From Muribaculaceae bacterium Isolate-104 (HZI) (lineage in GTDB: Bacteria; Bacteroidota; Bacteroidia; Bacteroidales; Muribaculaceae): a stretch of 42,337 bases of DNA. Below, in pieces: positions 3,388-13,651 of the stretch. Below the pieces are notes generated by a model. That model saw only the letters and a list, made by a program, of their open reading frames with translations, searched no databases and was not told where the DNA came from. Numbering within the stretch: the first letter of the stretch is position 1; each line of letters starts with the position of its first letter. The DNA lies in contig RIBJ01000065.1 in NCBI GenBank assembly GCA_003762715.1, positions 1-42,337 on the forward strand, given 5' to 3'. Both the position numbers and the translations under genes were made by a program.

Positions 3388-4409
3388 CACACACCAGAGT
3401 AATGGCAACCATTGCCGACAATCGCGCCACAGCACAGTTTGTGCGCGAGTTGCATGCCGCCGGAATGGAGGGCGTGAGAATAAACTCCGCGCATGTCACC
3501 CCTGAGGCTATCCGCGCTATCATACCGACTGTGCGGGCTGTCGACCCCGCAATCGTGATTCTTATGGACACCAAAGGCCCGGAGATGCGCACTACAGCTC
3601 TTGAGCCGGGGATTGAATCGGTCAGGATGAATGCCGGAGCGGAAGTCCGAGTTTGCGGAGGAGACGCACATTCGGGCAGCAGCCGGATATTTGTCAACGC
3701 TCCGGCTGTAGGCAGTTATCTTGCTTCGGGCGACAGGCTGTTTATAGACGACGGCGAAATTGAACTGAAAATAAAAAGAGTGGAAAACGACAACACGTTG
3801 CTTTGCGAAGTTATCAGAGCAGGCGTGCTCGGTTCGCGCAAGAGTGTCAACGCGTCTGAGGGTGCCAAACTGCCACCCATGCCGGCTGTGTCGGAAAAAG
3901 ACCGTGTCAATATAAAGGCAGCCCTTGAGTGTGGAATAGACATAATAGCCCACTCGTTTGTCCGGACAGCCGACGATGTGCGGCAGGTGCGCGAAGAGTT
4001 AGGCTCTTCGGCGGTGAAGCTGTTTGCCAAGGTCGAGACCAGAGAGGCGCTTGACAACCTTGAGGCGATAGCAGACGCCGCAGACGGGCTGCTGGTGGCG
4101 CGTGGCGACCTCGGCGCGCAGATACCTCTTTGCGAAGTGCCTGCCGCGCAGATGCGCATAATGGCGTTGTGCAGAACTGCCGGCAAATCAACCATCATAT
4201 CCACGCAGATACTCGATTCGATGATGCGCCGACCCCAGCCTACCCGCGCCGAGGTGAGCGATATAGCCTTCGGAGTGTGCCAGGGAGCCGACTGGCTGCT
4301 GCTCACCGGCGAAACCGCAAAAGGCGATTATCCAGCCGAGGCGGTGAGCGTCATGCACGGCACTATTGCCGCCACCGAAAAATATCTTGAGCCATGCAGC
4401 GTGAAATAG
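3384..4409 (+). CDS. pyk: Short pyruvate kinase lacking the C-terminal domain
   Basis: Pyruvate kinase converts phosphoenolpyruvate and ADP to pyruvate and ATP. The product keeps the barrel and B-domain core: MDTKGPEMRT (about 61-70), a FAKVET segment with the catalytic lysine and metal-binding glutamate, the glycine-rich VARGDLGAQIP, and the signature around TRAEVSDIAF plus SGETAKGDYP-like TGETAKGDYPAEAV. At 341 residues it ends soon after this motif, whereas usual enzymes have about 470-590 residues with a C-terminal regulatory domain. The usual TIGP and NFSHG segments are altered (TIADN; RINSAH), so the serine ligand of the monovalent cation appears to be alanine. It overlaps aroQ by 4 bases and the next gene by 16. 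It may be a catalytically changed paralogue. Confidence 0.85.
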   Translation: MTHTRVMATIADNRATAQFVRELHAAGMEGVRINSAHVTPEAIRAIIPTVRAVDPAIVILMDTKGPEMRTTALEPGIESVRMNAGAEVRVCGGDAHSGSSRIFVNAPAVGSYLASGDRLFIDDGEIELKIKRVENDNTLLCEVIRAGVLGSRKSVNASEGAKLPPMPAVSEKDRVNIKAALECGIDIIAHSFVRTADDVRQVREELGSSAVKLFAKVETREALDNLEAIADAADGLLVARGDLGAQIPLCEVPAAQMRIMALCRTAGKSTIISTQILDSMMRRPQPTRAEVSDIAFGVCQGADWLLLTGETAKGDYPAEAVSVMHGTIAATEKYLEPCSVK

Positions 4410-5023
4410 ACGACTATATAACGCTACACACATCAGCCGAGCCGCCTCATCTTGCCAGGCTGTATCGCCACACATGGCTCCACCGGCTGTATCCTCAGAT
4501 GTGTTCAGGACATGTGCAAGGACGAATCATAAAGATGCTTACGGCTATGATAAATCCCGCCAAAGTGCTTGAACTGGGCACATTTACCGGCTATTCAGCC
4601 CTTTGTATCGCCGAGGCGCTGGAGCCGCACGGCGAGCTGCACACTGTCGAGATTGATGATGAGAACGCCGAGGCGCTTGAACAACTGTTTGCAAGCTCTC
4701 CCGGCGGTGACAAAGTGAAGTTGCATGTCGGCGATGCGCTGGAAATTATTCCGGCCCTTGACATTCAATGGGACATGGTGTATATAGACGCGAACAAACG
4801 CCATTACTGCGAATACCTTGAGGCGGTGTTGCCCCGCCTGCGTCCGGGCGGGTTCATTATTGCCGACAATACCCTTTGGGGCGGCAAGATAGCAGAGGGT
4901 GCCACCGACGCGCAGTCGGCGGGGATAGCCCGCTTTAACGACCTTGTTGCGTCAGACCCTCGGCTTGAAACCGTAATATTGCCGCTGCGCGACGGGCTGT
5001 CGCTCATCCGCAAACTCCCGTAG
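4394..5023 (+). CDS. SAM-dependent O-methyltransferase (caffeoyl-CoA OMT-like family 3)
   Basis: A class I methyltransferase of 209 residues. The SAM-binding motif I is ELGTFTGYSALCIAEAL, followed by an acidic residue at the end of the next strand (HTVEIDDENAE). The metal-dependent family-3 features are DMVYIDANKRHYCEYLE and RPGGFIIADNTLWGG (Asp and Asn as divalent-metal ligands). The substrate is unknown; bacterial homologues act on catechols or other small hydroxylated compounds. Its ATG lies inside the end of the pyruvate kinase gene, so translation is probably coupled. It is the last gene before the accessory island. Confidence 0.88.
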   Translation: MQREIDDYITLHTSAEPPHLARLYRHTWLHRLYPQMCSGHVQGRIIKMLTAMINPAKVLELGTFTGYSALCIAEALEPHGELHTVEIDDENAEALEQLFASSPGGDKVKLHVGDALEIIPALDIQWDMVYIDANKRHYCEYLEAVLPRLRPGGFIIADNTLWGGKIAEGATDAQSAGIARFNDLVASDPRLETVILPLRDGLSLIRKLP

Positions 5024-5388
5024 GCGCGCCAGTCCTGAATTTCCGGAGAGTCTGTATTTGTTCATTGCACTCTATTCAGAGAGTGGAAGTGTCTTCAAGT
5101 CGGAAAACGTCAAAAATAATAGCAACTATAACAGACCGATTTTTAGTAGTTAAGAGCGCGATCCTTAAAATTTCGCGCTCTAAAGTCACGTCGGGAATCT
5201 TGGGTAGGCGCTAATGTTACTTTATATTACCACCTGTCCTCGTTAATGAGACAGGAGGATGCTAATTTTGCCGCCGCAGCTTGTAAATATGTTATGTAGC
5301 ATATTTATGTATGGAATATATTTCGTAATTTTGCAATTAACAATAAAATACATATTTACGAAACAGACATACGAAAAGTATACATAAC
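5024..5388. other. Left flank of the accessory island, non-coding
   Basis: No supported gene. There is a 9-base-pair stem (AGAGCGCGA at 5153-5161 with TCGCGCTCT at 5173-5181), without a clear T tract. A small imperfect hairpin CCTGTC...GACAGG lies near 5233-5256. An AT-rich inverted repeat (TAAATATG 5284-5291, CATATTTA 5300-5307) has a further copy of CATATTTA at 5351-5358. Two TAATTTTG boxes fit the -7 consensus, at 5263-5270 and 5326-5333. No direct repeat shared with the right end of the island (9833-9862) was found by eye. Confidence 0.5.
5304..5333 (+). promoter_or_regulatory. Candidate promoter of the island operon
   Basis: TAATTTTG at 5326-5333 matches TAnnTTTG. The nearest -33-like sequence is TTTA at 5304-5307 with an 18-base spacer, so the match is only partial. 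If used, the transcript would carry about 300 untranslated bases before the first gene at 5648. The box sits between copies of the CATATTTA repeat. Confidence 0.4.
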
Positions 5389-5630
5389 GATTTGCATTGA
5401 CATGCAATGACCAAATCTCGATTCGGTTAAATCTGGTAAATCTAACAATGGGTCGAAAAGAAAGGTCAAAGCTTGCTTGGTGCGTCCTCCCGCGAGGGCA
5501 CAGGCTGCTTTTTCTAATTCTTGACCCAATGGCTTTACCAGAGCCAAACCGAAGAGATGCAGGTAAAGAGTGCTGTGTCCTCTTTTAATACAGCCGGAGA
5601 TTGCCGAAGCCCGTCAGTCGGACGCACGAA
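5356..5630. other. Structured patch: possible leader/ncRNA or remnant of a minus-strand gene
   Basis: Several complementary segments lie here. A hairpin spans 5389-5417 (GATTTG-CATTG with CAATG-AC-CAAATC). TGGGTC (5449-5454) pairs with GACCCA (5523-5528), enclosing GTGC-CCTC with GAGG-GCAC (5480-5500). Also GTGCGTCC (5480-5487) is the exact reverse complement of GGACGCAC (5620-5627), and CTTTACC (5533-5539) is that of GGTAAAG (5562-5568), so two alternative folds are possible. On the minus strand a frame stays open for about 87 codons (5617 down to 5356) with protein-like composition (for example LYLHLFGLALVKPLGQELEK) but lacks a plausible ATG start. Which reading is right cannot be settled by eye. 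Confidence 0.35.
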
Positions 5631-5647
5631 ATTTTTGAATAATCAAG

Positions 5648-6028
5648 ATGGCAAATTATTTTTGTAAATACTGTGGAACAAAAGCATGTTCTGCTTCGTC
5701 TCTCACGAGTGCTTACTGTACCCGTCATCCTAATGGTTCCGGAAAAGGGAAACATGTGGTATACGAAGGTGCTGAATCTTCAAAATATATCTGTGAGTAC
5801 TGTGGTACCACGGCAAGTTCTATATCATCTCTGACAAGCAGCTATTGTTCGCGTCACCCGAACGGTTCGGGCAAAGGGAAGCATTCTCCGTTTGAAGGAG
5901 GAATCAAAAGCCGGTATACCTGCAAATATTGTGGCACAAGCGCAAACTCCCTGTCATCTCTGACAAGCAGCTACTGTACACGCCATCCTAATGGATCGGG
6001 AAAAGGAAAACATTCACCACTAAGATAA
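5648..6028 (+). CDS. Three-repeat Cys3His zinc-finger-like protein
   Basis: A 126-residue protein built almost entirely of three copies of a 43-residue unit (Y4-H36, Y47-H79, Y90-H122). Each unit reads C-x2-C-x14-C-x2-H followed by PNGSGKGKH. The cysteines and histidines (C6, C9, C24, H27 and equivalents), together with the second histidine (H36 and equivalents), look like a zinc site, and the SGKGKH tail is basic. No enzymatic motif, signal peptide or membrane segment is seen. I do not recognise a named family. It may bind nucleic acid or serve as a partner of the next gene, whose ATG follows seven bases after this stop. The repeats are also very similar at DNA level, which suggests recent duplication. 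Confidence 0.82.
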   Translation: MANYFCKYCGTKACSASSLTSAYCTRHPNGSGKGKHVVYEGAESSKYICEYCGTTASSISSLTSSYCSRHPNGSGKGKHSPFEGGIKSRYTCKYCGTSANSLSSLTSSYCTRHPNGSGKGKHSPLR

Positions 6029-6035
6029 TATCACA

Positions 6036-7970
6036 ATGAAAGACGAAAATAAAACCTCCCTGTCAGACATCCCATTCAAGGAATGTGTAAATGACTTCGG
6101 AACTGAACGTTATGTCAACGGACTAATCAAGTTTATTGAAAATTCATCAGCCCCTATCACAATTGCATTGCAAGGAGAATGGGGAAGTGGTAAAACATCA
6201 ATGATGACCCGCCTGGAACGCGCTCTTTGTTCCAAAGAAGACTCTCCGTTCATAGGGGTGAATATAAATACATGGGAATATTCAATGATGTCTTCTCCCG
6301 AAATGACGGTCTATAAAATTCTCGCCAAACTTGTGCGCGAATTGACAGGAGAAAATTCTGATTCCAAAAAGAAAGTATCGAAAATTTTAAGAGGCTTGTA
6401 TCGTGGAGGGCGAGAAGCGCTCAAAATGATACCGGGTGTGAACGTAGCAGTGGAAATGGCGAAAATTCCCACTGATATATCTGTCGATGAGAAAGATAAT
6501 GATGCTTCTTTGTCAGAGCTGAGAGAAGAGCTGCAACAAGTGATAAACAGCAGGATAGCTGACACTGGTCAGCGAGGAGTGATAGTGTTCGTCGACGACC
6601 TCGACCGTCTCAATCCCCCTGTAGCCGTAGAGATACTGGAACTTCTTAAAAATGTTTTTACCTTAGACAACTGCATCTTTGTGCTCGCAATAGACTATGA
6701 TGTCGTAGTCAAGGGGCTTGAGCCAAAATTTGGAAAACTCACAGACAAAAACGAGAGAGAGTTCCGATCTTTCTTTGATAAAATAATTCAGGTTCCTTTC
6801 TCTTTGCCCGTAAGCAGTTATAGACCTATGGACTTTGTGTTGAATGCTTTGGTCGGAATAGGATACCTGAAAGATATTGACACATCAGATCCTAATGTCA
6901 GAGCTCGCTTTTCCTCTGTGGTAGAATCCTCCGTAGGAAAGAATCCACGTTCTATAAAGCGATTGATCAATACCCTTTCGTTGCTTGACTGTATCGCACA
7001 ATGTGGTTCTGAAAAGGATGAAGTTGCAACTATGGATGAAAAGCTCCTGAATTTTATAATAGTCGCCATACAGATTTGTTATCCGCAGATATACAGACTG
7101 CTTGTTCATAAACCCGGGTTTACCTCATGGGATGCCGCTTTCGCACATAAAGAAGGAGTTGCCCTAAGCACGGACGGACAAGAAGTTCAAGAATGGGGTG
7201 ATGTGCTTGACGCGGCATGTTCCATTGACAAGTATCTCACGCAGCACATCTCCGATATAACAAATCTTTTCTCAATGATTATTGAGATTCTCGGTCGTTC
7301 CAATATAACCACTTCTGATGCAATAAGTATGAAGCTCAAACAAATTCTTGATAAATCATCTGTAACCGGAGTTAATGCCGGCGTCAACGCTGAAGACTTT
7401 GACAAAAAGGGTCTAATCGGTAAACTTCACAACAATGTAGTGGAGAGGATAAAGCAGCTTCGCCCTGATATCACCCGTTATCAGTTGAAACGCAACACCG
7501 GCAATGGCGGGATTTACATCTGGTTTGATGATGATGCTTACTTTGATGTCACCTTCACTCCCGCAATCAATTCCAAAAATGAAATAGCACTGAGAATATG
7601 GCTTGATTTCCATATTGCACGCCCGGAAAGAATGGGCGGTATGTCTTTTGACGAGTTATTGCAAGATGAACAGTTATCATCTTCGCTAACGGCATTGGAC
7701 GCTATTTTGGCACCGCTTTTAAAATCAGCATGGTATTTTAATGGACGCACATACGACGGACAATCGTCTTATTTCTCATCTTTCGTTGATGAGTTACGTT
7801 ACATCCATAAAATGGGTTGGATGGCTGGAGATATTACAAACAATCCTCAATACTGGATTGATTTGCAAAAACCATCTCATTTTGAAGACAGTAAAATCGT
7901 TGATACTATTGCAAAAGTGCTAATTGCTAATTACGATTTCCGCAAATCAATGAAAAATTGGGGAAAGTAG
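6036..7970 (+). CDS. KAP-family P-loop NTPase
   Basis: The product (644 residues) has the KAP NTPase layout. The N-terminal FGTERYVNGLIKFIE leads into Walker A GEWGSGKT (47-54), then the family-typical NTWEY (about 78-82). Walker B is GVIVFVDDLDRLNPP (181-195), followed by LKNVFTLDNCIFVLAIDYDVV. KAP proteins often carry membrane helices between Walker A and B; here that insert (about 105-165) is charged or amphipathic, so the protein is probably soluble. The region after about residue 480 is unassigned. KAP ATPases are known in phage-exclusion factors such as PifA and in the Qat system. The gene follows the zinc-finger gene by seven bases and is AT-richer than the housekeeping genes around it. 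Confidence 0.9.
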   Translation: MKDENKTSLSDIPFKECVNDFGTERYVNGLIKFIENSSAPITIALQGEWGSGKTSMMTRLERALCSKEDSPFIGVNINTWEYSMMSSPEMTVYKILAKLVRELTGENSDSKKKVSKILRGLYRGGREALKMIPGVNVAVEMAKIPTDISVDEKDNDASLSELREELQQVINSRIADTGQRGVIVFVDDLDRLNPPVAVEILELLKNVFTLDNCIFVLAIDYDVVVKGLEPKFGKLTDKNEREFRSFFDKIIQVPFSLPVSSYRPMDFVLNALVGIGYLKDIDTSDPNVRARFSSVVESSVGKNPRSIKRLINTLSLLDCIAQCGSEKDEVATMDEKLLNFIIVAIQICYPQIYRLLVHKPGFTSWDAAFAHKEGVALSTDGQEVQEWGDVLDAACSIDKYLTQHISDITNLFSMIIEILGRSNITTSDAISMKLKQILDKSSVTGVNAGVNAEDFDKKGLIGKLHNNVVERIKQLRPDITRYQLKRNTGNGGIYIWFDDDAYFDVTFTPAINSKNEIALRIWLDFHIARPERMGGMSFDELLQDEQLSSSLTALDAILAPLLKSAWYFNGRTYDGQSSYFSSFVDELRYIHKMGWMAGDITNNPQYWIDLQKPSHFEDSKIVDTIAKVLIANYDFRKSMKNWGK

Positions 7971-8069
7971 AACCCATATACACATTCATTAGAGAAGGTG
8001 TAACCTTGGCTATTAGACTCCAAGCTCCTTGGAATACAATAATTGTTGATTTTACAGCAGAAACAGAAT
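7971..8069 (+). other. Short gap with small hairpins inside the island operon
   Basis: Ninety-nine bases between the KAP gene and the next start. CTTGG near 8006 can pair with either flank of CCAAG...CTTGG near 8020-8033, giving only five-base stems. No clear promoter of the TAnnTTTG type is present, so the downstream genes may be read from the upstream promoter. Confidence 0.3.
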
Positions 8070-8930
8070 ATGAAAGATATTAAGTTTAAAGCGATAGAAG
8101 AGAATACGTTGAACGATAAACTGGTGAATCTCTACGGAGCCAAAATTCCGGGGCTATACTCTGCTATAAAACCCCTGTTCGAGAATCCGGAGGCAATTAA
8201 GCCGGCTTTACCTTTGCTTATTGAACTGAACGGCGATGAATCATATGAGAACGCCGACCTGCGTGTGATGATATTCGGACGCGAAACCAACAACTGGAAC
8301 GACCCAAAAGACTTTAGAAAGGACTTTCCATACGGCACATATAATTTAGATCTCCATACATCAGAAGATGTAGTTGCCGAGATAATGGGTCGGCATGTAG
8401 AAGGAGAAGACGATTATTATGGAATCGGAGATCTGTATCATGGATATTTCTTTGAAAAAGATGAAAATGGCAATAGGCTGAATACTACACCATTCACCCG
8501 TCGCGCGGATCAGCTGATAGACATCCTGCGAACTAAAATGCCGAATATTAATATTGAATATCTGTGGAACAATGTCTCAAAAATTGGATGTGGAGGAACA
8601 GACTTTGGTAAAAGTTGCCGCAAACCGACAGCTGAAATCCGCGAAATTGAACGCCAATATTTTAATGTTGTTGCGGATGAAGTGAAAATCCTAAACCCCG
8701 ATATCATAATCTTCCTCACCGGATTCAACGCAGACTCAGAGATAAAAGATAAATTCGCACTTGCTGATGATGCTTTCCATCCGGTGAAAAACGGCGTTTT
8801 TCTTGATAGAATCGAGATTCCGGGAGTGAAATATGCTGCCCGCACAATTCACCCGTCGCGCCAGAGTAATGAAAATCTTAAACAGCATTACGATGCTTTA
8901 GTTGACGATATTATCAGCGTTTTACGATGA
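8070..8930 (+). CDS. Uracil-DNA-glycosylase-superfamily-like protein
   Basis: A 286-residue soluble protein. The order of motifs resembles the uracil-DNA glycosylase fold. VMIFGRETNNW (about 66-76) is at the place of the water-activating loop after strand 1, NPDIIIFLTG is a buried strand, and ARTIHPSRQSNE (HPSR at 261-264) is at the place of the HPS DNA-intercalation motif. Residues differ from true uracil glycosylases (GQDPYH becomes GRETNN), so substrate and even activity are uncertain. I chose ATG 8070; the frame is open to a TTG at 8043, nine codons upstream, but that has no better start context. Its TGA overlaps the ATG of the WYL gene. Fold assignment is from motif memory only. Confidence 0.6.
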   Translation: MKDIKFKAIEENTLNDKLVNLYGAKIPGLYSAIKPLFENPEAIKPALPLLIELNGDESYENADLRVMIFGRETNNWNDPKDFRKDFPYGTYNLDLHTSEDVVAEIMGRHVEGEDDYYGIGDLYHGYFFEKDENGNRLNTTPFTRRADQLIDILRTKMPNINIEYLWNNVSKIGCGGTDFGKSCRKPTAEIREIERQYFNVVADEVKILNPDIIIFLTGFNADSEIKDKFALADDAFHPVKNGVFLDRIEIPGVKYAARTIHPSRQSNENLKQHYDALVDDIISVLR

Positions 8931-9832
8931 GTCGCCGGTTAAAACAACATATATGGCTGATTAACATTATCCGACGGCACAGAAAGATTTCATTTAAAGA
9001 CCTTTCTGCTCTTTGGGAATGTAACAAAGACATGAGCGATTACAAGCCGCTCCATCGAGGCACATTCAATAGATGGAGAACTGATATCCGTTTGAAACTT
9101 GGCATTGACATCGGTTGTCAGACAACAGGAGGCTATCTATACTATATCACCAACCCCGATGATATAGATGATGACAAACTCAGGCGATGGATGATAGATA
9201 CATTTTCTGTCGGCAATCTTGTTGAAGAGAACCTCTCTTTGAAAAATCGTATTATTGTTGAAGAGATACCTTCCGGGCTATTGTATCTTACACCTATCAT
9301 GGAAGCGATGAAAGGGAATAAGGTTCTTGAAATGACTTATACCTCTTTCAGAACGGGTGATACGCTTTCTGTTGTCGTAGAGCCATACTGCGTGAAGCTA
9401 TTTGAATGCAGGTGGTATCTATTGGCGAAAACGGCAGGGAAAACGATGTTAGGAATCTATTGTCTTGACCGGATACAGTCGCTTACAATACTTGAAGATA
9501 CGTTCAATTTGCCCAAGAACTTCTCGACGGCGCGATATTTTGAAACAATGTACGGAATAGTCTCAGAGAATGTCAAGCCGCAAAAAATCGTTCTCCGAGC
9601 CTATAAACAACACAAACACTATATCAGGTCGCTGCCGATACATCATTCACAGCGCCTGACAGAAGATTACGGGGAATATGCCGATTTCGAACTCTATTTA
9701 GCTCCAACCTTTGACTTTATCATGCGTCTTCTTCACGATGGCGCATGGGTAGAAGTCATCTCGCCGGCTCCTTTGCGCATGGCTATGAAGGGTTGGATTT
9801 CAGACATGAGTGACCATTACGAAGAAGATTAG
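8927..9832 (+). CDS. WYL-domain transcriptional regulator
   Basis: The product (301 residues) has an N-terminal helix-turn-helix-like part (about 1-70, with RHRKISFKDLSALW and FNRWRTDIRLKLGI). A WYL domain follows (about 125-190, W163-Y164-L165 in ECRWYLLAKTAGK), then a C-terminal extension with PIHHSQRLTEDYGEYADFEL, ending in the WCX-like VEVISP segment. WYL proteins sense ligands, often nucleic-acid related, and commonly control or accompany phage-defence genes. The start overlaps the upstream stop (ATGA), so the two proteins are probably made together. The AT-rich inverted repeats near 5284-5358 are possible binding sites, which is a guess from position. Confidence 0.9.
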   Translation: MSRRLKQHIWLINIIRRHRKISFKDLSALWECNKDMSDYKPLHRGTFNRWRTDIRLKLGIDIGCQTTGGYLYYITNPDDIDDDKLRRWMIDTFSVGNLVEENLSLKNRIIVEEIPSGLLYLTPIMEAMKGNKVLEMTYTSFRTGDTLSVVVEPYCVKLFECRWYLLAKTAGKTMLGIYCLDRIQSLTILEDTFNLPKNFSTARYFETMYGIVSENVKPQKIVLRAYKQHKHYIRSLPIHHSQRLTEDYGEYADFELYLAPTFDFIMRLLHDGAWVEVISPAPLRMAMKGWISDMSDHYEED

Positions 9833-9913
9833 TAAAAAACGCAATTTAAACAGGTTTGGCGGGTGCCGGAATATATTTTTCTTCGGGAGAAGATTTTTTA
9901 TTACTTTTGGGGC

Positions 9914-12900
9914 ATGGGAATCAGGATATTTATACAGACCTTGGTTTGTATAACAGGAATATTTTATGCCGCTGTGTTTGCCAAGGCGGAGACGGTGTGT
10001 GTGCCGGTAACTCAGTATTTCGAGGAAACAAACGGCATTGTGAAGCCGGAAAATCCGCTTCATGAAACTGTCGAATGGTGGTTTGAACTGGAAGCGTCTT
10101 CCGGCTCTGCAACGCTTGTAGCGCCTCCGACCGGTGCCTACTCCTTTGAATTTCCCGGTGCTGCGGGAAGAAAGACAACCTATAAAGATGGCAGCGTGGC
10201 ATACGATTTCTGGAGTCCTTCCATGGGTTCTCTTTATGGTCTGGACACATACTTCACCGCTGTAAAGATTCCCGAAGTGGTGGTTAATCCTGATGACGGA
10301 AAGTCATATACAGTCACGGCGATAGGAGCCGAAGCCTTTGCCGGCTCGAATATCGCGGTAGTGCATGTGCCATCTTCTGTCACATCCCTCGGCGAGAGAG
10401 CCTTTGCCGGGTGTGAGTCTTTAAAAGGTATTGAGCGCACGTCGGCATACGAGCTGATTCCTGACGCGGTGACTTCCGTTGGCGAGGGGCTGTTTGCGGG
10501 ATGTGTGAGCCTGGAGCGTGTGGATATAGGAGACGGAGTGGAAACTATACCTTACGCAATGTTTGACGGGTGCGAATCGCTGAAGCAAGTGAAATTCGGA
10601 GCCAAGGTCAGGCAGATAGAATGTGAGCTGCCCCGGCTCACCGCCGTATCCTTCCATTCCGAAGCGCCTCCGGCAATATCCGGCACCCTTCAAGCCGACG
10701 AGATATGGGTTCCGGCAGCAAGCGTTGAAAAATATAGCGCGATGTCTGCGTCGGGAACAGTCAAAGGTTTCGAGGTAACGGCAAATCAGCCTCAAAAACT
10801 GAAATTTTATACATTGCATAGCCGGCAGGTGCGTTTTGACATGACATCCGCACCAATGAAGCCTGAAAACAGCAACGAGTCTTACTATTTTATTTACAGG
10901 ACTCTCGATTTCGGCGGATTTGGTATAAGAAAAGAAAAAATGGGCAGGTATGTGGGGGAAGACAGATCCGATTTGCCTTATACTCTGTATTTCAGCGACC
11001 CCGAAAAGGGGCTTGTTCATGGACCCCACACATTTCCTTGTTCGAACGACACGAGTTTTTATGCCCAGTTTACAGCCCCCGGCAACTATGAGCTGAAAAT
11101 AATGAGCAATGATGTCAGCAGGGCATCATACACCTGGCAGGTTGAAGTTGTGAACGGAACGCCGGCAGACTTTATATATGTGGAAGGTCCCAACCAGCTT
11201 GCCCCCGGAGCCGTAGAGAAATATACGGCGAAAGTCTATGTCCGGGACTCAGGCATAGAGCCGTCGGTTACGGACGTGTTGTGGAGCTCGGACAATGAAG
11301 AGGTGTTTACGGTCGACTCTGACGGCACGCTCCATGCTGTTGGCGAAGGAGAGGCGCACCTTGTGGCAAGAAGTGCCGACCCCGCGTGTCCGTATGTGTC
11401 ATACACCAAAACGGTATATGTGGGTAAAAACGCCACGGCAGTCTATAGCGTAGCGCAGACAGTTGCCACGCGGCGGAATATTACCGGCGCTTTGCCGGAG
11501 TGCGAGGATATAGATATTGAATTTCATGTGTCGAGATTTCCTGACGGCAGCTATGCCCTGACTGCGCCTGGAGGCGATATAGACTATTCGGCGGGCAAGC
11601 CTGTAACTCCATATGATTTTGCCTACACCGGAGCTGAAAGTCTGCTGAAGTCAGGTATGAGACGGATGTACTCTTCGACGTTGGAGCTGATAGCGGCTAA
11701 CAAACCTGCTTATCTCGGCTATACGACCCCTTTGGAAATCAATACCGAGTTTCTGATAATTAATGGCGTTAGCGCTGAGTTTATACTTATATCAAAAATA
11801 GATGATTACGCCTTTGCGGGCAGCAATATCCGCTACGTCACCATGCGGGGCCCTGTTTCTGTCGATGAGTGTCTTACAGAAATCGGCGATTATGCTTTTG
11901 CCGGCTGCACAGCGTTCAAGGGCATAGAGGAGGGCAGTGCGTATGATGTCATTCCGGAGTCGGTTGTGCGGCTTGGGCGCGGAGTGTTCAAGGGGTGCAG
12001 CGCAATGGAGATAATGATGATAGGCGACGGTGTGACCGAGCTCCCCGAAGAAACGTTTGACGGCTGCACTTCGCTGCGTCAGGTGCGCATCGGAGCCGCA
12101 GTCGGGGTGGTGAAATGTGACATAGTGGCATCGGAAAAAATAGCCTTTGCGTCACAGCAGCCTCCGTTGCTGCAAACCGGATGTGTCATCTCAGCCCCCG
12201 AAATATGGGTGCCGGCAGAGGCGGAGCAGGCGTATCGGGAGGTCTTTGCTGAGGCAAATGTTATTCCTTACAGCCTTGTGGTAGAGGAAGGTCGTTCGGG
12301 CATAGGTTGCTATGTCGGTTATGACCGCCGGCTGTCGGTAAAACTTACATCCCCCGGGCTTTCGGGCAATAATTGCGTTTATCCCTATCCGGTGGACGGG
12401 GTTGCCAATGTTGGGTTCTCCGCACCGGCTTCAGCCGCGTCATTGCCGGGCTATAGGGTCGGATATGATAATAAAAAGGTATTGTCCAAAATAGTGCCTT
12501 ACGAAACATACGCGGAGGTGAGTTATAATGCCGAGACGACCACTCAGCTCACCTTTGTGAGTCTTGACATCACCAGGGCTAAAGCAACTGTGCCTTTTAC
12601 GGTCAGGAAAGGCGAGCCTTCGGTACTTATGTCAATACGCCCTGCTTCAGCCGCGCCGCTCACGGTGGGAGCGTCAGTGCAGTTTACGGCGACCTGGACG
12701 GCATCCTCAACATCAGCAAATACAGTGAAATGGGAGGTGTCTGACACGGACATCGCTACAATTTCAACAAGAGGCAAACTTACGGCAAAGGCTCCGGGTG
12801 CTGTTACGGTAACCGCCACAAGCACCAGTCCGCTGAGCGATATCTCGCGGGTGCAATACAATATCGAAATCAAAGCGCTTTATTCGGATTTCGCTCTTGT

Positions 12901-13651
12901 CAGACTGACTGAATCATCGGAAGTGCCGCTTAAAACCAATGAGCTGATAACCGGTACAGAGGGCGACGAGATTCGTTTAAAAGTGAACACCACGCCGACC
13001 TCTGCCACTCCTCCCGAACTTGTATGGACAATTCTTAATAACGGCAACTCTATATGTGAGTTTGACAAGGAAACCCTCACGCTTAAACTTCTTAAACCGG
13101 GTTCTTGCACACTTGCTGTTCGAATGCCGGCAACACTTACCTCGACAGGCGAGGCGATAGACAAACTGTTGAGAATAACCGTAGAAGGCAAGGAAGAGGA
13201 GCCTGAGCCTCCGGTCGATCCCGAGCCTGAGCAACCTGACAATCCGGAGCCTGAGCCGCCGGTCGACCCCGAGCCGGTCGACCCCGAGCCTGAGCAACCT
13301 GACAATCCGGAGCCTGAACCGCCGGTCGACCCCGAACCCGAACAGCCCGAAATTCCTGACAATCCTGAACCGGAGCCACCGGTCGACCCTGAACCCGAAC
13401 AGCCTGAGAATCCCGATAAACCAAGCGGGCTTGACGGAGTGCGCCTCCCGGAGTTGAAAGTCAGCACAATAGCCGGAACAGTAATGATAGAGGGAGCCGG
13501 ACACGGCAGTCAGATACGGATTTATTCTCATGAGGGAATGCTTGTTTTCCGTACTGTTGCCAAAGAGGAAGAACCGGTATCATACACAACGCACCGCAGA
13601 GGGGTGTTCATTGTCACAGTCGGTTCAAAAGCATTCAAAGTGGCTTTGTAA
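9914..13651 (+). CDS. Large secreted BspA-like LRR / Ig-like surface protein
   Basis: About 1245 residues. The N-terminus MGIRIFIQTLVCITGIF...AKA looks like a signal peptide; the frame is open to a GTG at 9863, but the ATG at 9914 puts this peptide at the end. Two similar modules follow. Each has LRR_5 repeats (about 134-236 and 629-732, with GIGDGVETIP-type units) and an EIWVP segment. Bacterial Ig-like (BIG2) segments lie near 416-493 and 900-973, and a third Ig-like part near 990-1070. A Pro-Glu-rich linker with repeated PEPPVDPEPEQPDNPEP spans DNA 13195-13425. The last 70 residues (GSQIRIYSHEGMLVFRT...GVFIVTVGSKAFKVAL) resemble a type IX-secretion sorting or related C-terminal domain. A role in adhesion is likely but unproven. 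Confidence 0.85.
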   Translation: MGIRIFIQTLVCITGIFYAAVFAKAETVCVPVTQYFEETNGIVKPENPLHETVEWWFELEASSGSATLVAPPTGAYSFEFPGAAGRKTTYKDGSVAYDFWSPSMGSLYGLDTYFTAVKIPEVVVNPDDGKSYTVTAIGAEAFAGSNIAVVHVPSSVTSLGERAFAGCESLKGIERTSAYELIPDAVTSVGEGLFAGCVSLERVDIGDGVETIPYAMFDGCESLKQVKFGAKVRQIECELPRLTAVSFHSEAPPAISGTLQADEIWVPAASVEKYSAMSASGTVKGFEVTANQPQKLKFYTLHSRQVRFDMTSAPMKPENSNESYYFIYRTLDFGGFGIRKEKMGRYVGEDRSDLPYTLYFSDPEKGLVHGPHTFPCSNDTSFYAQFTAPGNYELKIMSNDVSRASYTWQVEVVNGTPADFIYVEGPNQLAPGAVEKYTAKVYVRDSGIEPSVTDVLWSSDNEEVFTVDSDGTLHAVGEGEAHLVARSADPACPYVSYTKTVYVGKNATAVYSVAQTVATRRNITGALPECEDIDIEFHVSRFPDGSYALTAPGGDIDYSAGKPVTPYDFAYTGAESLLKSGMRRMYSSTLELIAANKPAYLGYTTPLEINTEFLIINGVSAEFILISKIDDYAFAGSNIRYVTMRGPVSVDECLTEIGDYAFAGCTAFKGIEEGSAYDVIPESVVRLGRGVFKGCSAMEIMMIGDGVTELPEETFDGCTSLRQVRIGAAVGVVKCDIVASEKIAFASQQPPLLQTGCVISAPEIWVPAEAEQAYREVFAEANVIPYSLVVEEGRSGIGCYVGYDRRLSVKLTSPGLSGNNCVYPYPVDGVANVGFSAPASAASLPGYRVGYDNKKVLSKIVPYETYAEVSYNAETTTQLTFVSLDITRAKATVPFTVRKGEPSVLMSIRPASAAPLTVGASVQFTATWTASSTSANTVKWEVSDTDIATISTRGKLTAKAPGAVTVTATSTSPLSDISRVQYNIEIKALYSDFALVRLTESSEVPLKTNELITGTEGDEIRLKVNTTPTSATPPELVWTILNNGNSICEFDKETLTLKLLKPGSCTLAVRMPATLTSTGEAIDKLLRITVEGKEEEPEPPVDPEPEQPDNPEPEPPVDPEPVDPEPEQPDNPEPEPPVDPEPEQPEIPDNPEPEPPVDPEPEQPENPDKPSGLDGVRLPELKVSTIAGTVMIEGAGHGSQIRIYSHEGMLVFRTVAKEEEPVSYTTHRRGVFIVTVGSKAFKVAL
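13195..13425 (+). repeat. Pro-Glu-Asp coding repeat within the surface protein
   Basis: Repeated units of about 15-20 codons encode variations of PEPPVDPEPEQPDNPE, with near-identical DNA such as CCGGTCGACCCCGAGCC. The encoded stretch is an extended, charged linker that would lift the protein from the cell surface or pass through capsule. Such tracts easily change copy number. Confidence 0.85.

Follow-up and report, generated by a model that had tools for sequence, protein, structure and literature searches.

Bacteria attack modified phage DNA both by cleavage and by base excision. GmrSD cleaves DNA carrying glucosylated hydroxymethylcytosine (PMC4619093), and Brig1 and Brig3, members of the uracil-DNA glycosylase (UDG) superfamily, excise glucosylated hydroxymethylcytosine-type bases (PMC11078745, PMC13160076). 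We describe a cassette from Muribaculaceae bacterium Isolate-104 (HZI) in which a KAP-family NTPase stands beside a protein with a predicted UDG fold (UDG-like protein, UDGL), together with a zinc-finger repeat protein, a WYL regulator and a structured leader RNA. The cassette lies in a stretch of 42,337 nucleotides (contig C15 of a 2.84-Mb genome), called the window below. Its interpretation as an inducible anti-phage cassette built from swappable modules is, in our estimate, about evenly balanced between right and wrong.

Comparison with described systems

Brig1 and Brig3-BapA, which act against T-even phages, resemble the cassette in having a UDG-superfamily fold, which is predicted for UDGL, and in their defence-type setting (PMC11078745, PMC13160076). 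An ADP-ribosyl glycohydrolase gene adjoins the Brig genes, and such a gene adjoins WYL genes related to that of the window (in locus L048 by Pfam and in contig C65 of the same genome by BLASTP). Brig works alone or with BapA, whereas the cassette adds a KAP ATPase, a zinc-finger protein, a WYL protein and a leader RNA. The type IV restriction system GmrSD (PMC4619093) is linked to the locus through relatives, since GmrSD_N proteins fill the slot 3' of the same KAP at 8 of the 23 places where this KAP occurs; none of the window's four proteins contains a GmrSD_N domain, and in the main text of PMC4619093 the string KAP occurs only within an author name. As GmrSD cleaves DNA with modified bases and Brig1 and Brig3 excise such bases, GmrSD and UDGL would both fit an attack on modified DNA.

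Among KAP proteins, QatA of the QatABCD system belongs to the KAP-family NTPases and carries an additional C-terminal domain; it binds DNA and appears to be a 7- or 8-mer (PMC13279940). The first-pass annotation of this locus had set Qat aside, and rightly so. The QatA model gave 92.1 bits against a cut-off of 600, and this score, together with the lack of any QatB, QatC or QatD match (PADLOC, NCBIfam) in the other three proteins, rules out membership. The PADLOC model of PifA, a KAP phage-exclusion protein, matches the KAP NTPase domain (E 1.8e-29), but only over model positions 39-315 of 720, and the cassette is a multi-gene one. In RADAR, a ring ATPase works with a separate enzyme (PMC9994260). 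A Foldseek search with the predicted KAP model placed the RdrA ring of RADAR (PDB 8hra, 8hr8, 8fnt) at the top of the list (E 3.8e-6; template modelling (TM) score 0.24), and 19 of the first 20 matches were RdrA or RdrA-RdrB entries. No adenosine deaminase RdrB was found among the cassette's four proteins. No open-access paper was found in which KAP is combined with a UDG or GmrSD partner, which is a weak negative given the incomplete coverage of that literature.

Gene content and insertion

The inserted stretch (5024..9862, + strand) is flanked by genes for an O-methyltransferase (4394-5023) and a BspA-like protein (9863-13651). As first annotated, its four genes are co-directional, all on the + strand, with gaps of 7 and 99 bases and an ATGA overlap at 8927-8930. 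Their AT-richness is likewise confirmed: GC content is 41.8% in 5648-9832 and 52.7% in the remaining window, and none of 67 equally long sliding stretches in the window fell below 49.7%. In the sister genome G410 both flanking genes are 40 bases apart and the cassette is absent (locus L096). The methyltransferase gene is present in 30 of the 34 genomes of the genus, its own included. Its surroundings were compared in 16 of the 29 relatives, where several contigs stop soon after the methyltransferase; none of these 16 loci holds a cassette gene (tblastn, E<=1e-8), and the BspA neighbour is directly visible only in G410. With its low GC content and the empty site, the cassette looks like a transferred insert. 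The BspA-like surface protein adjoining it has 1262 aa and a proline-rich repeat tail.

The first gene (5648..6028, +) encodes a protein of 126 aa with three CxxC-x14-CxxH repeats, in keeping with the zinc-finger call made earlier, although its best Pfam matches fall slightly below their cut-offs. Relatives occur in 14 of 342 genomes, its own included. The second gene (6036..7970, +) encodes the KAP-family P-loop NTPase of 644 aa, an assignment that stands on a strong match to PF07693 (E 4.3e-41, 141.5 bits against a cut-off of 20) and on an intact Walker A (GEWGSGKT, at 47) and Walker B (near 182-191). This KAP (E<=1e-60) occurs at 23 places in 21 of 397 genomes of the family, its own among them. 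The window zinc finger is 89-91% identical to its counterparts in G554 and G608, and the KAPs of these two genomes are 80 and 78% identical to the window KAP in the N half and 38% in the C half, for which the nearest relative is that of L196 (70%). A mosaic origin thus shows within the window as well.

The third gene (8070..8930, +) encodes UDGL, of 286 aa. The earlier description of it as glycosylase-like agrees with its AlphaFold 2 model (predicted local distance difference test (pLDDT) 88.9), which matches UDG-superfamily structures and has the alpha/beta fold of that superfamily. At the sequence level no curated model of the superfamily matches: no Pfam, NCBIfam or PADLOC family was found at E<=1, the UDGL profile had no match among PDB chains at E<=10 and the single sequence gave chance-level matches only. 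UDGL may represent a UDG-fold branch overlooked by curated models. G70, W166-N167 and H261-P262 are invariant, G70, N167 and H261-P262 in all 19 rows of the UDGL alignment. G70, N167 and H261-P262 may correspond to motif A (the Gly-rich loop), the Asn after strand 2 and the His-Pro motif B of UDG enzymes. Relatives of UDGL were found in 10 of 393 genomes of the order and 18 of 397 of the family, its own included in both counts, and a scan of the contigs of other genomes gave one relative, L016, from an uncultured Muribaculaceae genome (L016 and G527:C24 (L028) are treated as one locus).

The fourth gene (8927..9832, +) encodes a WYL/WCX transcription regulator of 301 aa. Both PF13280 (41.1 bits, cut-off 21.8) and PF25583 (25.1 bits) match above cut-off, so that the first assignment holds. 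On its own this gene is of little diagnostic value, as WYL (E<=1e-40) is present in 353 of the 397 family genomes, its own counted.

Module exchange among relatives

The first-pass annotation had proposed one transferred four-gene system that would be found together in other genomes. Transfer is supported by the low GC content, by the empty site and by the 16 relatives' loci without cassette genes, but the idea of a single four-gene system is not. Neighbourhoods were read at the 23 KAP places and at 20 distinct UDGL places, and the exact set was found nowhere outside the window. The closest are G410 (L047), with zinc finger, KAP and UDGL but no WYL, and G659 (L049), with KAP, UDGL and WYL but no zinc finger of the window type, each with three of the four. 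By the refutation criterion given with that annotation, the four-gene set is therefore not a conserved unit. What is conserved is two overlapping modules, and KAP and UDGL each occur mostly in company other than one another.

The gene 3' of KAP encodes a GmrSD_N protein above the Pfam cut-off at 8 of 23 places (L048, L196, L198, L202-L205, L208), and a second GmrSD_N gene comes next in seven of these, the contig of L048 stopping there. UDGL fills the position at three places (window, L047, L049) and something else at five (L199, L201, L206, L207, L211); the gene is not co-directional at two (L197, L212), and a contig end cuts the 3' side at the remaining five (L058, L200, L209, L210, L213), of which L210 and L213 may be halves of one gene. 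Close relatives therefore pair the same ATPase with GmrSD-type proteins instead of UDGL. The seven arrays of KAP followed by two consecutive GmrSD_N proteins (L196, L198, L202, L203, L204, L205, L208) form a candidate KAP-GmrSD defence operon in their own right. A zinc-finger gene lies directly 5' of KAP at 6 of 23 places (window, L047, L048, L202, L203, L208).

On the UDGL side, WYL lies directly 3' of UDGL at 9 of 20 places (window, L016, L046, L049-L054) and within a few genes at three more (L055, L056, L059). The gene 5' of UDGL is variable: KAP at three places, a 625-695-aa protein of the LRR/Sel1 type at four (L016, L046, L051, L053), RtcB in L052 and others elsewhere. The three joins of KAP and UDGL are all co-directional, with gaps of 61-99 bases. 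In the UDGL tree the window protein groups with that of L046, apart from the two other KAP-linked UDGLs (support 100/99), and one origin of the three KAP-linked UDGLs was rejected (approximately unbiased (AU) test on 12 of the 19 rows, the seven most distant excluded; p 1.8e-5). In the KAP tree, monophyly of the three UDGL-linked KAPs was not rejected (p 0.097).

Two further observations were made at these loci. Similar genes for secreted lipoproteins adjoin UDGL-WYL (L050 2474-3475, L056 7339-8412) and KAP (L199 4834-5835), a likeness judged by eye and, for L050 and L056, by clustering; their presence beside both modules suggests a common insertion hotspot. In L016, an Abi_2 family gene (11461-12447) lies about 1.5 kb from UDGL-WYL.

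The leader RNA

The 624-base noncoding stretch 5' of the first gene, which the first-pass annotation overlooked, is conserved over much of its length. Over positions 5263-5625, identity with the corresponding region of L196, L198 and L199 is 82-86%, as against 67-76% for the coding sequences of these loci. Within it lies a structured leader RNA (5379..5621, +; 278.6 bits with our covariance model R1). RNAalifold on eight close sequences gave 65 pairs, of which only 3 had two-sided changes, and its covariation term gave no support. Among 15 members including divergent ones, two-sided changes occurred at 47 of the 65 pairs (shuffle mean 18.1, with none of 500 shuffles as high; slid structures 12-21), a count that is biased towards the structure since the alignment was fitted to it. 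The covariation that identifies this stretch as a structured RNA thus comes from the divergent members. The 3' end contains two helices that overlap and could form a pseudoknot, and one of them has a terminator-like run of T near 5585; 7 of their 14 pairs show two-sided changes, and one of five measures was equal to or worse than shuffled. A second model, R2, had 36 pairs only and was poorer than R1. The family may be new: Rfam 15 had no match at E<=1 in window positions 4900-10000, and in five further sources it gave five matches, none on the leader RNA.

When 78 sources were scanned with R1, 9 of the 23 KAP places proved to have a strong copy and L204 a partial one; L016, L046 and L050-L054 gave no match at E<=1. 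Within the same genome, further copies lie 5' of a second UDG-like gene (contig C6) and of a weakly REase-ARP-like gene (C29), with weak ones in C79, C18 and C33, that in C79 being 5' of a DUF4595 lipoprotein gene. Scores are low (18-41 bits) for the matches in L183, L062, L182 and L204 and for those in C33, C18 and C79 of the isolate itself, some of which may be due to chance; the antisense strand of the RNA was also matched weakly, as is typical for a long hairpin. The copies heading other genes rule out the RNA as a part peculiar to KAP and make it a dispersed leader family. The start codon of the next gene lies within about 60 bases of the members (by eye), and a cis-regulatory role is favoured.

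A second copy of the RNA and a 26-base element like the one described below (C6:54926-55168 and L221 9166-9879) stand at the head of a gene whose 237-aa product has motifs resembling those of UDG (hhalign E 5.6e-4, probability 30%); next come several small genes of unknown function and another such element. In L215 (6264-7889), an RNA copy heads the weakly REase-ARP-like gene (E 0.0032, below cut-off), which is followed by a gene for a 240-aa unknown protein and then by a WYL gene.

The 26-base element

A promoter- or operator-like element, AATGAGACA-N9-TAATTTTG, heads the cassette (5245..5270, +). A second element, TANNTTTG, lies at 5326..5333 (+), 45 bases 5' of the RNA, and 12 of the 15 members of the RNA family have such an element at a distance of 25-54 bases on that side. 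We read TANNTTTG as a promoter element of the -7 type. Searches of 80 sources with AATGAKACA followed after 5-18 bases by TANNTTTG gave 27 matches, all with a spacing of 9 (26 bases) although 5-18 was permitted, while eight permuted motifs gave 0-1 matches each. Seven of the matches lie just 5' of UDGL genes, four of WYL genes, two of metallophosphoesterase genes, one at the head of the window cassette and 13 at other or unnamed genes. The element was first spotted in gaps 5' of UDGL, so that its occurrence there is post hoc and the isolate's own genome serves as the independent check. This genome has three exact sites and five with at most one mismatch (1 and 2 with a reversed pattern). One of the five is the window site, two belong to the C6 island that holds the second UDG-like gene, and an RtcB-WYL island in C65 contains the other two, one of which ends 46 bases 5' of the WYL match. 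The element is thus restricted in this genome to islands of the WYL/UDG type. The spacing between element and RNA is 108 bases in the window and 109 in C6. This operator-like element may be new, and the WYL protein would bind to it.

Islands with varied sets of genes for RtcB, metallophosphoesterase, WYL, ADP-ribosylglycohydrolase, a DnaQ-type exonuclease and small unknown proteins occur in Muribaculaceae (L214, which is own-genome C65, L048, L052-L054, L185-L195). Some carry the 26-base element, and they are possibly an RNA-damage regulon.

Proposed function and alternatives

In the anti-phage interpretation, the WYL protein would sense a ligand of infection or damage and act at the element at 5245-5270. 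The transcript would start with the leader RNA and then encode the zinc-finger adaptor, the KAP AAA+-type NTPase and the UDG-fold enzyme. By analogy with its family, and like RdrA and QatA, KAP would assemble on nucleic acid as a ring. It would load or license the effector jointly with the zinc-finger protein, which at a guess is an adaptor between ring, DNA and enzyme. UDGL would then flip out and excise bases of the invading DNA, leaving abasic sites. These would probably be modified bases, as GmrSD and Brig-type proteins attack modified phage DNA. In relatives, GmrSD-type proteins would take the place of UDGL beside the same ATPase. This interpretation draws on the predicted UDG fold, the exchange of UDGL for GmrSD_N proteins, the KAP-UDGL joins of more than one origin on the UDGL side, the RdrA matches and the properties of QatA, the low-GC insert, the confinement of the element to WYL/UDG-type islands of this genome and the Abi_2 gene near UDGL-WYL in L016.

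Several observations weigh against this interpretation. UDGL-WYL is found mostly without KAP, and the two occur in the same genome in 3 of 397 cases against 0.95 expected, which is not significant (p 0.062). At 7 of 10 other loci, the gap that separates UDGL from its 5' neighbour contains TANNTTTG (in six of them this gap is 103 bases or less), so that UDGL is perhaps often transcribed separately. At L047 and L049, where KAP and UDGL are also joined, R1 finds no RNA at E<=1, and the RNA also occurs 5' of lipoprotein genes. The KAP model is only moderate (pLDDT 74.5), with a TM score to RdrA of about 0.25, and the type of effector is not reflected in the C-terminal half of KAP. PADLOC is silent on the zinc-finger protein and on UDGL. 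With QatABCD mutants, defence against some phages did not require the KAP protein (PMC13279940).

Alternatively, the cassette may serve stress-induced repair, a WYL regulon of RtcB RNA ligase, DnaQ-type exonuclease, ADP-ribosylglycohydrolase, metallophosphoesterase and UDG-fold enzymes mending or clearing RNA and DNA damaged by toxins, antibiotics or phage, with KAP as a remodelling ATPase. Canonical UDG enzymes work in repair, UDGL genes, like those of this WYL subfamily, are frequently part of islands with such genes (ADP-ribosylglycohydrolase alone is confirmed by Pfam, the others being named by eye), and the own-genome RtcB-WYL island shares the 26-base element with the cassette. However, the window cassette has neither RtcB nor another repair gene, KAP swaps to proteins of a restriction family, and the empty site and patchy spread of KAP and UDGL (21 and 18 of 397 genomes) are unlike housekeeping repair. 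We regard this explanation as rather improbable, though a serious one.

A broader proposal is that of an RNA-headed defence class, in which one leader RNA family and a dedicated WYL-controlled promoter would serve interchangeable units of DNA attack (a KAP and GmrSD pair, KAP with UDG, a lone UDG-like protein or a nuclease-like one), and the RNA itself would sense infection or join the KAP ring in target recognition. This is speculative, and we hold it to be improbable.

Still a little less probable is that the KAP and UDGL-WYL modules are independent neighbours in a common insertion hotspot, with no joint function. Each is commoner without the other, their co-occurrence across genomes is not significant, as given above, and UDGL has a promoter-like element of its own in several loci. 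Against this, the three joins are co-directional and closely spaced and do not share one origin on the UDGL side. In the window, moreover, the element heads the cassette and the 99-base gap between KAP and UDGL holds no TANNTTTG, unlike the corresponding gap in most other loci. This is the strongest indication that the cassette genes are transcribed as one unit.

A role of the leader RNA in trans, as guide, sensor or scaffold for KAP and not only as a cis leader, would be compatible with the anti-phage interpretation. In its favour, the RNA is better conserved than the genes, has strong copies at 9 of the 23 KAP places and may form a pseudoknot at its 3' end. Against it, members of the family also head genes for lipoproteins and weakly nuclease-like proteins and end near the next start codon, the layout of a cis-regulatory leader, and the two further loci that join KAP and UDGL have no match at E<=1; we think such a role unlikely. 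A viral origin is not supported for either the RNA or UDGL: three pattern scans of viral contigs gave 0, 0 and 1 match, the latter within a coding frame; the A1 profile had no confirmed relative in viral contigs and P0001 one weak match there (37% over 30 residues); no phage match was found for UDGL, whose one plasmid match, in Polaromonas, has 25% identity; and the leader RNA matched neither plasmids nor phages.

Implications

If the anti-phage interpretation is correct, two ways of attacking modified phage DNA, cleavage by GmrSD and base excision by a glycosylase, would be joined to one interchangeable ATPase platform. It would also add a UDG-fold branch unseen by curated models and an RNA family outside Rfam. 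In Muribaculaceae, the 26-base regulatory element would mark a compact putative WYL regulon, of which further members can be found with the element by sequence alone.

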